Program-made: the position numbers and the translations under genes | Source: Pseudomonadota bacterium | Lineage (GTDB): Bacteria; Bdellovibrionota; Bacteriovoracia; Bacteriovoracales; Bacteriovoracaceae | Length of the DNA: 64,000 nucleotides | Assembly (NCBI GenBank): GCA_027487685.1 | Contig: JAIYDC010000019.1 | Span: 1 to 64,000, forward strand | Direction of reading: 5' to 3' | The notes under the pieces: model-generated | Told to the model about the DNA's origin: nothing | Databases searched by the model: none | What the model saw: the letters and a program-made list of their open reading frames with translations, nothing else | In this document: positions 6,896 to 10,899 of the stretch, one piece after another | How the letters are laid out: every line of letters begins with the position of its first letter | Position numbering within the stretch: the first letter of the stretch is position 1

Positions 6896-7852
6896 CTAAT
6901 ACTTATTGGCAGGAAGACGATTTACTTTTCTTTCCGCAAACTCAAAAGCTCGAGCAGCATCTAATTTCCCTGCTCCTGCAACTTTCCCTTCAAAACTTTT
7001 AACTTTAAGGACCGAACCAACAATGATTTCTTTGATCTGAGGACCGGTCAAATTGGGATACCTTGCTTTAATAAGAGCTGCAACTCCAGTAACAAATGCC
7101 GTCGCCTGGCTTGTACCGGTCATATAAGCAGTCTTATTACCGATATAAGCACCTCTGATCCTGTATCCCGGAGCAGCTATATCTACAGATCGAATACCAA
7201 AATTAGAAGATGAAACAATCTTCAATTGATCATCGTAACCTGCGACGGTGATTACATTACTTAGACCATAATTGGCCGGATACGAAGGATGATCTGGGTC
7301 ATCTATGTTCTCGCCTCTGTTCCCTGCGGCTGCAATAACAAGTATTCCCTTACTCCTCGCCTCTTGAAGTACTTTAAGCTCGTCAAGCGCATTTCCTGAC
7401 CCAGCAGATGAATAATTGATGAAATCAACTTTTGCATTAATGGCAAATCTTATGGCCTTTATTGTGGCCCTAATGCTTTGGTCTGCTGTCTGGTTCGCAT
7501 CATAATATTTCAAGGGAAGAATTCGCACATCTGGATAAATTGATTTAATAATACCGGCGATATGAGTTCCATGCCCATTAACATCGTTAGAAGTGGTTTT
7601 TGTGAAATCGACAGTAGGAGCAATGTTATTTGCCAAGAATGAATGTTGAGAATCAATGCCAGTATCGATGACGGCAACAAGGACTGATTTATGGGTCTTA
7701 TAATTTTTCCAAGCCTTTTCAAGGTTAATCGAAGCAAGACCCTTGTCTGGATCTAGTCCCCAGCTAGCAAACCTTGATAATAGCAACTCGTTCTGCTGAG
7801 CATGAACTGAGAATGTAAAAAAAAGGACTACAATTATAAAATATGACTTCAT
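6896..7852 (-). CDS. Secreted subtilisin-like serine protease (S8 family)
   Basis: The 318-residue product has a cleavable signal peptide (SYFIIVVLFFTFSVHAQ) and a complete S8 catalytic set: Asp63 in VIDTGID, His94 in NGHGTHIAG, oxyanion Asn178 in AAAGNRG and Ser248 in MTGTSQATAFVTG. There is almost no room for a classical I9 propeptide (only ~25-30 residues between signal and catalytic domain), so maturation may be minimal. It is divergently transcribed from the BlaI-type operon and shares its 226-base upstream region with the BlaI-like operators. Likely periplasmic or extracellular proteolysis; substrate unknown. Confidence 0.9.
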   Translation of the reverse strand: MKSYFIIVVLFFTFSVHAQQNELLLSRFASWGLDPDKGLASINLEKAWKNYKTHKSVLVAVIDTGIDSQHSFLANNIAPTVDFTKTTSNDVNGHGTHIAGIIKSIYPDVRILPLKYYDANQTADQSIRATIKAIRFAINAKVDFINYSSAGSGNALDELKVLQEARSKGILVIAAAGNRGENIDDPDHPSYPANYGLSNVITVAGYDDQLKIVSSSNFGIRSVDIAAPGYRIRGAYIGNKTAYMTGTSQATAFVTGVAALIKARYPNLTGPQIKEIIVGSVLKVKSFEGKVAGAGKLDAARAFEFAERKVNRLPANKY

Positions 7853-8016: not shown

Positions 8017-8034
8017 CTACTAACTTTTTAGTAG
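8017..8034. promoter_or_regulatory. Putative BlaI-type operator 1 (imperfect)
   Basis: CTACTAACTTTTTAGTAG is an imperfect dyad (7 of 9 positions pair) lying 45 bases upstream of the repressor gene. It shares the CTACTAA/TTAGTAG half-sites with the perfect operator 22 bases downstream, i.e. about two helical turns centre to centre. Autoregulation by the BlaI-like product is inferred. Confidence 0.65.
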
Positions 8035-8038
8035 ACTC

Positions 8039-8056
8039 CTACTAATTAATTAGTAG
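8039..8056. promoter_or_regulatory. Putative BlaI-type operator 2 (perfect palindrome)
   Basis: CTACTAATTAATTAGTAG is a perfect 18-bp palindrome, 22 bases upstream of the repressor start codon. BlaI/MecI/CopY repressors bind TACA/TGTA- or TACTA-type dyads as dimers and commonly repress their own operon. Two tandem sites allow cooperative binding and could also repress the divergent protease gene. Confidence 0.75.
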
Positions 8057-8470: not shown

Positions 8471-10495
8471 ATGAACCTATTTTTGCAGCTAAATCTTCTC
8501 ATAGGTATAAGTGGTGTTCTCTTTGTTCTAGCAGAGAAATTTCTCCAATACATGTCCGTGAGGATTTCATTTACCAAAGCACTTCGATTTGCTCAGTTGA
8601 TTTTTATTCTTTCACTAACTCTTCCATTGATATTGAAACTGCTCCCATCGACTTCAATACGAGGAGTGCCATCTAAAACATTTACTGCATACTCTGAAGG
8701 CATGTCTCAGACTTTATCCGTCGATAAGGTTATTACTCAGAAGCCAATTATTACTACTTCCTCATCCAACTCAAAAGATGTTGGATTTGAATTTGATTAC
8801 ACCTTAATTGCACTTTTAATCTGGCTTGTAGGTTTTTGTTATTTCTTCTTCAGATTCGCCGTCAATTACTTCCAAGTCAGACGACTTCTTTCATCCTCAG
8901 TTCCAATTAAAACCTACAAAAGAGTCAAGATCGTTGCATCTGAAGAAGTTTATGTTCCGTTCTCAGTTAGAATGCCCAAGGGCATATGGGTAGTTGTTCC
9001 TGTACTTTTGCTATCGGAAAAGAAAGACCTAGATCTGGCCATACAACATGAAATCCAACATCACCGCCAAGGTGACACTGCGTGGGCAGTGTTTATGGAG
9101 CTAGTAGGTAGTTTTCTATATTTTAATCCAGCAGTTTATTTATGGAAAAACATCATTACTGAATTACAAGAATTGTCCTGTGATGAATCTCTTATCGGCC
9201 GAGAAGAGATTTCTTCCCATGATTACGGCAGTTGCCTTTTAAGAGTGGCAGAGGCAGCACTTGAGCATCGTCATATGTATGCAGGTACAATATCCATGGC
9301 GGCGATCATTAAGGACTCCAACTATTTTAAGAAGTTTCTATTAAGGAGAATTGAAATGATCACCGAGAAAAGTTCTCACACCAAGCCATGGATTACGATT
9401 TCGGCTAGTTTATTTATTATATTAGCTTCAGTCGCAGCGGCGATTGGTTCTGAGAAACTCATCAGAGGAAAAAGAAACATTAATCCTGGAATAGTAAAAG
9501 TGGAGAAGGAGATCCAGAAGATCACAGATGAAGCTCTGACCAGAGCACTTTCAAGAATGAAAGCAACTGCTGGATTTATCATTGTAACCGAGCCATCTAC
9601 TGGAAGGATATTGGCCGTTGCCAATATGGATCTAAAGAGCAAAAGGAAAGGTCACTGGATTCTACATGAACTTATGGAATCAGGCCCGATTGCTAAGCCC
9701 ATTATGGTGGCAGAGGCACTTGAGCTAGGTAAAACTGATCTTACCTCACAGCACAATTGTGAGAATGGTAAGTATGCATACAAAGGAACTACTTACAGAG
9801 ACTGGAAAGACGGTGGATGGAATTCACTTACAACCTCTGAAACTCTTGAACTATCCAGTAACATCTGCAGCATCAAAATTGCCCAGCTATTAGGCGAAGA
9901 TAGGCTTTCTTCCATGCTGGAAAAATTTGGCTTTGGTGAGGGTGGTACGGCCAGTTCTTTTCCAGAAGCTCTTCCAGGTGAGCGTCCTATCAGTGGCAGC
10001 CAACTACTTCCTCAAGCGGCAATCGGACTTGGATTTAAAAGTTCTGTCATTGAAACCCTTCAGGCATATGGAGCAATCGCCAATGGAGGAACACTTATGG
10101 AGCCAGTTTCACCTACTGAGAAGCCAAAAGTTTTAAGACATGTACTTTCTAAAAAGTCTATTTTACAGCTACATCAGCTACTCCAAAATGTAGTTCTACA
10201 TGGCACAGGAAAAAGAGCACAAAGTGATCTTTATACTACCGCCGGGAAGACATCGACGGTACTTAACAAAGAATTTGCAGGAGTCAGCGGATATCGATCA
10301 AAAGAGATGGCCAATATCGCGGGATTCATAGGCTTTGCACCTGCTCAAAATCCAATTATTGTAGTCTATGTTGGGATTATAAATCCCAATACTGATGGCA
10401 CAGGTGCCCATGGAGGTTATCATGCGGCCCCCGTGTTCAGAGAGGTTGTAGAAAACGTCCTTACACATATGAAAGTAGCACCTGACAAGATCTAA
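8471..10495 (+). CDS. BlaR1-type M56 protease fused to degenerate penicillin-binding transpeptidase domain
   Basis: The 674-residue predicted sensor-transducer spans the inner membrane. Hydrophobic segments near residues 5-20, 35-55 and 115-135 precede the M56 zinc protease domain with HEIQH (His193, Glu194, His197) and the third ligand Glu239 in SCDES. A further membrane segment (~310-330) leads to a periplasmic domain that aligns with class B PBP/FtsI transpeptidases: ESGPIAKP, SSNICSIKIA (SxN motif) and TAGKTST (KTG region). The FtsI-type S-x-x-K serine is proline here (Pro406; Lys409 kept), and KTG is KTS, so covalent beta-lactam acylation looks impossible. Normal BlaR1 carries a class D-like sensor instead. 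It likely controls the repressor in response to a cell-wall ligand. Confidence 0.85.
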   Translation: MNLFLQLNLLIGISGVLFVLAEKFLQYMSVRISFTKALRFAQLIFILSLTLPLILKLLPSTSIRGVPSKTFTAYSEGMSQTLSVDKVITQKPIITTSSSNSKDVGFEFDYTLIALLIWLVGFCYFFFRFAVNYFQVRRLLSSSVPIKTYKRVKIVASEEVYVPFSVRMPKGIWVVVPVLLLSEKKDLDLAIQHEIQHHRQGDTAWAVFMELVGSFLYFNPAVYLWKNIITELQELSCDESLIGREEISSHDYGSCLLRVAEAALEHRHMYAGTISMAAIIKDSNYFKKFLLRRIEMITEKSSHTKPWITISASLFIILASVAAAIGSEKLIRGKRNINPGIVKVEKEIQKITDEALTRALSRMKATAGFIIVTEPSTGRILAVANMDLKSKRKGHWILHELMESGPIAKPIMVAEALELGKTDLTSQHNCENGKYAYKGTTYRDWKDGGWNSLTTSETLELSSNICSIKIAQLLGEDRLSSMLEKFGFGEGGTASSFPEALPGERPISGSQLLPQAAIGLGFKSSVIETLQAYGAIANGGTLMEPVSPTEKPKVLRHVLSKKSILQLHQLLQNVVLHGTGKRAQSDLYTTAGKTSTVLNKEFAGVSGYRSKEMANIAGFIGFAPAQNPIIVVYVGIINPNTDGTGAHGGYHAAPVFREVVENVLTHMKVAPDKI

Positions 10496-10899
10496 TTTGT
10501 TTTAATTGCAGCTGATAGAAGCAAGATCCCCGGAAGGTGTGAAAGACACTAAAGCTCAGTTTAACCCACTGGGCTTTTTTTATGTTTAGAATGAATACTT
10601 GAGATTCCGTGACAGCCTGAAACAGATTTCACCCCTTAGGGATAGTATGGAAAACTACGAACTAAGGACTTTCCAATTGTGAATGATAATTACACAAAGT
10701 TTTGCACTACTTAACCGAAACCAGCTGATGATTAGTTGCTAGATCAGTCCCCTACCCAGCAATACCCTCTATCCAATCGAAATTTCAATGTTTTATTCTG
10801 TGCTTAAACGTTTGACGGCCAAGTAGACTTTACAGGCCAGAGCGGAGAACTTTTCCTATCGACATAATATGTATCAAATTTAGTTAGGTCAGGAGAACT
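10496..10899. other. Gene-free stretch with repeat copy D
   Basis: About 400 bases between same-strand genes. Repeat copy D just after the blaR-like stop carries the strongest hairpin/T-run of the family and probably terminates that operon. The remaining ~270 bases would carry the promoter of the lipoprotein gene, whose ribosome binding site AGGAG precedes the ATG at 10900. Nothing else was seen. Confidence 0.5.
10523..10625 (+). repeat. Dispersed intergenic repeat, copy D (terminator-like)
   Basis: Shares GTGTGAAAGACAC (similar to copy C), the core GCTCAGTTTAACCCACTGGGC followed by TTTTTTT, and GACAGCCTGAAACAG (10611-10625, identical to copy A). The stem here is GCTCAGT/ACTGGGC with one G-U pair and a long T-run, so it should work as an intrinsic terminator. 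Confidence 0.7.

Follow-up and report, generated by a model that had tools for sequence, protein, structure and literature searches.

The closest described systems to the locus reported here are BlaR1/BlaI and MecR1/MecI of Staphylococcus aureus and Bacillus licheniformis. When the SXXK serine of S. aureus BlaR1 is acylated, the EL1 loop leaves the sensor site, the M56 domain shifts towards cleavage of BlaI and the protease becomes active (PMC9834060). The sequence analysed here (the window) is a stretch of 64,000 nucleotides from a Pseudomonadota bacterium assigned to the Bacteriovoracaceae (GCA_027487685.1, contig JAIYDC010000019.1). It carries blaI followed by a gene for a BlaR1-like receptor with a class B penicillin-binding protein (PBP) as sensor (Table 1). 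The window copy differs from its relatives by Ser406Pro, a private and probably recent change that removes the nucleophile, and the receptor it encodes is probably uninducible or dead for signalling.

Table 1. Features of the blaI-receptor unit in window coordinates.
Feature	Position	Strand	Remark
Operator 1, BlaI-type, CTACTAACTTTTTAGTAG	8017..8034	+	exact inverted repeat
Operator 2, BlaI-type, CTACTAATTAATTAGTAG	8039..8056	+	22 bp after operator 1
blaI repressor, 129 aa	8079..8468	+	Penicillinase_R PF03965, 1.2e-29; intact
M56 metalloprotease - class B PBP transpeptidase receptor, 674 aa	8471..10495	+	PF05569 and PF00905
M56 part, residues 1-332	8471..9466	+	M56-only model compared with BlaR1 cryo-EM structure 8exs
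HEIQH zinc-binding motif, residues 193-197	9047..9061	+	intact; putative ligand role
FtsI/PBP3-like transpeptidase (sensor) domain, residues 346-674	9506..10492	+	class B PBPs are the best solved relatives
Pro406 (CCG) at the SxxK serine position	9686..9688	+	Ser in all relatives
SxN motif, Ser462-Ser463-Asn464	9854..9862	+	intact
KTG-box variant Lys593-Thr594-Ser595 (KTS)	10247..10255	+	common to relatives and ordinary FtsI
Terminator-like hairpin, 10 pairs and T run	10551..10577	+	closes the two-gene unit

The repressor and its operators, taken to be intact in a preliminary description of the sequence, proved to be so. Both operators are exact copies of CTACTAA-N4-TTAGTAG placed in front of blaI, and the motif was also found 5' of blaI in relatives and on Legionella plasmids. 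Residues 13-127 of the repressor match S. aureus BlaI (1sd4) and MecI (1okr). The terminator-like hairpin behind the receptor gene limits the unit to two genes, blaI and the receptor gene. Staphylococcal BlaI is cut at an Asn-Phe bond, a site that may apply to the Gram-positive members only. The Asn-Phe of S. aureus BlaI and MecI aligns with Arg-Leu in the window repressor, so that a cleavage site, if any, must differ.

The reading frame of the receptor is intact and contains a Peptidase_M56 domain (residues 50-274) and a Transpeptidase domain (residues 368-660). Structure models reached a mean pLDDT of 83.7 for the whole protein and 80.1 for the M56 part. The latter has four predicted membrane helices (residues 2-27, 34-57, 110-142 and 306-332), and residues 58-108, about 50 residues modelled with low confidence, would occupy the position of the EL1 loop. 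In a profile search the M56 domain scored 1e-20 with PF05569. With phmmer the M56 part had no match among PDB sequences, but a fold search with the M56-only model succeeded: S. aureus BlaR1 (8exs) was matched with a Z score of 20.2 and 3.6 A over 243 residues, and the S. aureus BlaR1 cryo-EM structures stood far ahead of everything else. When the whole protein was used for the fold search, BlaR1 was absent among the matches listed because these are filled by the transpeptidase domain. This M56 fold, together with the repressor and operators, bears out the initial assignment of a BlaR1-type receptor. The M56 site had been described as intact on the strength of HEIQH and Glu239. The motif is present, with H193, E194 and H197 invariant in the alignments, but Glu239 is replaced by Gln in two relatives; Glu234 (9170-9172), also invariant, is the better candidate and the probable third zinc ligand.

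The periplasmic domain was recognised from the start as FtsI-type, and structural comparison agrees. The top solved relatives of the PF00905 domain are FtsI, PBP2 and PBP3, all with the class B PBP fold; the domain was matched to P. aeruginosa PBP3 with a Z score of 43.1 and 2.5 A over 325 residues in the fold search, and to 6hzi at 1.8e-28. The class B triad of SxxK, SxN and KTG reads PxxK, SxN and KTS in the window copy, the last two as previously noted. The third KTG position is Ser or Ala in most family members. In a scan of 27 ordinary FtsI-like proteins, six, from the same lineage, had KTST together with intact SxxK and SxN, and KTS was therefore rejected as an independent sign of a dead site. 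The SxN motif is SSD, SSF, SST or SSV in four other receptors (L084:4521-6545, L085:4868-6898, L112:1908-3476 and L116:2355-3128), all of which retain SxxK; a possible meaning of such changes is the tuning of sensors against turnover. Several members of the family thus depart from the SxN or KTG consensus, and acylation may differ in efficiency among them.

The replacement of the catalytic serine by proline, the central observation of the preliminary description, stands: in alignments with class B PBPs, Pro406 of the otherwise intact protein falls on their SxxK serine, and Lys409 is retained. No homologue shares it. All 14 other M56-transpeptidase proteins of the Bdellovibrionota that span the site have serine exactly there, as do both Legionella plasmid relatives, so position 406 does not vary freely. 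The nearest relative, a metagenome-assembled genome (MAG) named Bacteriovorax stolpii (L034, 87% identity), has TCG, from which the CCG of the window copy differs by one T>C transition; relatives at 62% and 72% identity have TCC and TCA. In the structure model Pro406 sits at the start of helix 405-418. Proline is structurally tolerable in the first turn of a helix, and so the fold of the domain is probably intact. Ser404 was considered as a substitute nucleophile and is unlikely to serve as one, since it lies two residues N-terminal of the site and more distant relatives have no serine there. As judged from the alignments, the loss of the serine is private to one genome and is not a sensing mode common to the family.

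A change of this kind could also arise as a sequencing or assembly error, or as the base of a minority strain, in which case the true residue would be Ser406 and the receptor an ordinary member of the family. A single transition that is missing from every relative and accompanied by no other sign of decay would be expected of such an error, and the assembly consists of 149 contigs with an estimated contamination of 3.7%. Set against this, the frame is intact over 674 codons, the neighbouring genes look sound and consensus sequence errors are rare. A base error is thus unlikely, and it is the main alternative to a genuine loss.

The age of the change was approached through constraint on the transpeptidase domain, with changes assigned to branches by means of outgroups. 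These polarised counts were used because a codon-model branch test, which was set aside, apportioned the silent changes poorly to the two branches, and its omegas were unstable. The window branch has 11 amino-acid changes (13 on the sister branch) and 22 silent changes (16 on the sister branch). Its dN/dS is about 0.15, and about 71 amino-acid changes would be expected if it were neutral. On these counts, a domain that was useless for most of the window branch is excluded; as the counts are small, neutral evolution over as much as about one third of the branch would still fit them. Three readings are left: the serine was lost recently, the base is wrong, or the domain keeps a role without its serine. 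Constraint does not separate the last from the other two. Recent loss or base error is preferred, because the change is missing in every relative and because BlaR1 signalling involves acylation. Divergence from L034 is uneven along the gene (window 8471-10495 compared with L034:5001-7022), with a dS of 0.24 in the M56 half and 0.56 in the PBP half. In the M56 half, 13 amino-acid changes fall on the window branch and 5 on the sister branch (p about 0.1). Either recombination or uneven constraint may underlie this pattern.

A retained non-catalytic role would also fit purifying selection on the window branch, and the preliminary description had proposed one. The system, it argued, looks functional but must sense something non-covalently, for example a peptidoglycan fragment that perhaps derives from prey. 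The intact M56 domain, BlaI and operators agree with this, as do two precedents. PBP2 S310A still forms a pre-acylation complex with ceftriaxone, as stated in the title of PDB entry 6xqv, and in B. licheniformis BlaI is inactivated by a dipeptide from peptidoglycan (PMC3305447). A family-wide adaptation would however be predicted to be shared, and the substitution occurs in no relative; KTS is normal in the FtsI proteins of the lineage, recent loss explains the constraint equally well and nothing points to prey peptidoglycan. The proposal is therefore not supported, and we consider it very unlikely. Also very unlikely is a switch confined to this strain, from covalent to non-covalent sensing, in which Pro406 blocks acylation and the M56 protease is still controlled through the constrained pocket, by binding of a beta-lactam or of a peptidoglycan ligand.

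Recent loss of an ordinary covalent sensor is the reading we retain. In the family, the SxxK serine would be acylated by a beta-lactam or a substrate-like ligand, the periplasmic domain would move, and the cytoplasmic M56 protease would be activated. BlaI would then be removed from the two tandem operators and the operon derepressed. In the window genome, induction would raise only the repressor and receptor themselves, because the operators were found at their own promoter alone. Ser406Pro (TCG>CCG) would break the first of these steps: the window copy most likely cannot be acylated, which would leave an uninducible or signalling-dead allele.

The output of the circuit was sought in a scan of the whole window genome. 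Exact operator matches were limited to operators 1 and 2. With up to two mismatches, nothing plausible was found outside the two BlaI cassettes of the genome and matches were fewer than with a reversed-pattern control, so that a wider BlaI regulon was rejected. In seven relatives the operator occurs almost only at their own blaI; three more sites with one mismatch were seen in genomes G013 and G111. With the operator only at its own promoter, the window circuit looks self-contained, the receptor and repressor controlling themselves. The window genome also has two OXA-like class D beta-lactamase genes, L126 (C8) and L130 (C77). Control of these genes by the operator was rejected, as no site with fewer than five mismatches lies near either, and a resistance output is thus not evident in the window genome. 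No class A beta-lactamase was found in 13 genomes. The divergent subtilase gene (6896-7852) was discarded as a target, since upstream neighbours are not conserved in relatives, and the genes beside the M56-PBP cassette in general are not conserved among them.

The confinement of the operators to their own promoter, complete in the window genome and nearly so in the seven relatives, and the lack of conserved neighbours would also be expected if the transpeptidase domain were output as well as sensor. The receptor would then be a PBP tethered to the membrane that induces its own production under a block of wall synthesis. Peptidoglycan peptidase genes 3' of cassettes in three relatives are in keeping with this and, as a lead noticed post hoc, hint at a wall-related output. 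An NlpC/P60 gene (L035:5829-6470) lies directly 3' of the M56-PBP cassette of G141, and M74 genes lie directly 3' of an M56-PBP remnant in G066 (L093:1701-2519) and of the lytic transglycosylase (M56-SLT) cassette described below in G094 (L088:5712-6449). The altered SxN of four relatives is odd for an enzyme, however, the window copy would have no activity, and degenerate operators were possibly missed. A dual role of this kind is rather improbable, and it is compatible with the explanation preferred for the family.

The M56-transpeptidase architecture or its remnants were found in about 16 of 369 genomes of the phylum, in several families. In the remnant of G066 (L093:2573-3178) the open frame covers no more than the C-terminal 202 residues, and the G066 genome retains no operator at up to one mismatch. 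Outside the phylum, two conjugative Legionella plasmids (NZ_CP045305.1 and NZ_LN681226.1) carry operons of blaI, an M56/transpeptidase gene and a class D beta-lactamase gene (L123:4378-7595 and L124:4300-7515). They share with the window locus the two-gene cassette, the operator motif (CTACTA-N6-TAGTAG, twice in tandem) and about 29% identity over 85-89% of the receptor. They differ in that the serine and KTG are intact and that the class D beta-lactamase gene, OXA-29 in L. longbeachae, follows directly, about 70 bp downstream of the cassette. As the best functional clue available, the position of the Legionella cassette before OXA-29 leads us to infer that the family senses beta-lactams or PBP inhibition. 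Neither the M56-PBP architecture nor that with a lytic transglycosylase was found described in the open-access papers searched, and BlaR1-like receptors that sense through a class B PBP appear to be undescribed in the open-access literature.

The second BlaI cassette of the window genome lies outside the window (L087:4596-6562, G000:C47). It resembles the M56-PBP cassette in that its repressor belongs to the same family, its operators are likewise in tandem and the M56 core is shared. It differs in that M56 is fused to a GH23 lytic transglycosylase domain (SLT, PF01464) in place of the PBP and in its operator, CAACTAA-N4-TTAGTTG, which the window genome has at the promoter of this cassette alone. 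In the M56-SLT protein the catalytic-type motifs ES, AG-W-F, DER and AYN are invariant, and about 48 of the 369 phylum genomes carry the cassette. It may be more novel than the M56-PBP receptor. The two cassettes together suggest that more than one kind of peptidoglycan enzyme has been taken up as a sensor by M56 receptors. Pro406 alone is a substitution in one genome. The lasting result is a patchy BlaR1-like family with a cell-division-type PBP as sensor, which seemingly regulates only its own operon in Bdellovibrionota and precedes OXA-29 on Legionella plasmids.

The window locus has in common with BlaR1/BlaI and MecR1/MecI an adjoining BlaI-family repressor with tandem dyad operators and a receptor built from a four-helix M56 metalloprotease with HExxH (supported here by PF05569, the 8exs match and HEIQH) and a C-terminal periplasmic PBP-fold domain. 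The NCBIfam model blaR1_generic matched residues 42-321 only, within the M56 part, at 34.4 bits, far short of the equivalog cut-off of 400. Given a BlaR1-like M56 fold joined to a class B PBP periplasmic fold, it would work like BlaR1 with a different sensor, FtsI/PBP3-like instead of the class D-like penicillin sensor of BlaR1 and MecR1. The window operon further differs from these systems in having neither a beta-lactamase nor a PBP2a gene, and, in the window copy only, the nucleophilic SxxK serine of BlaR1 and MecR1 is gone.
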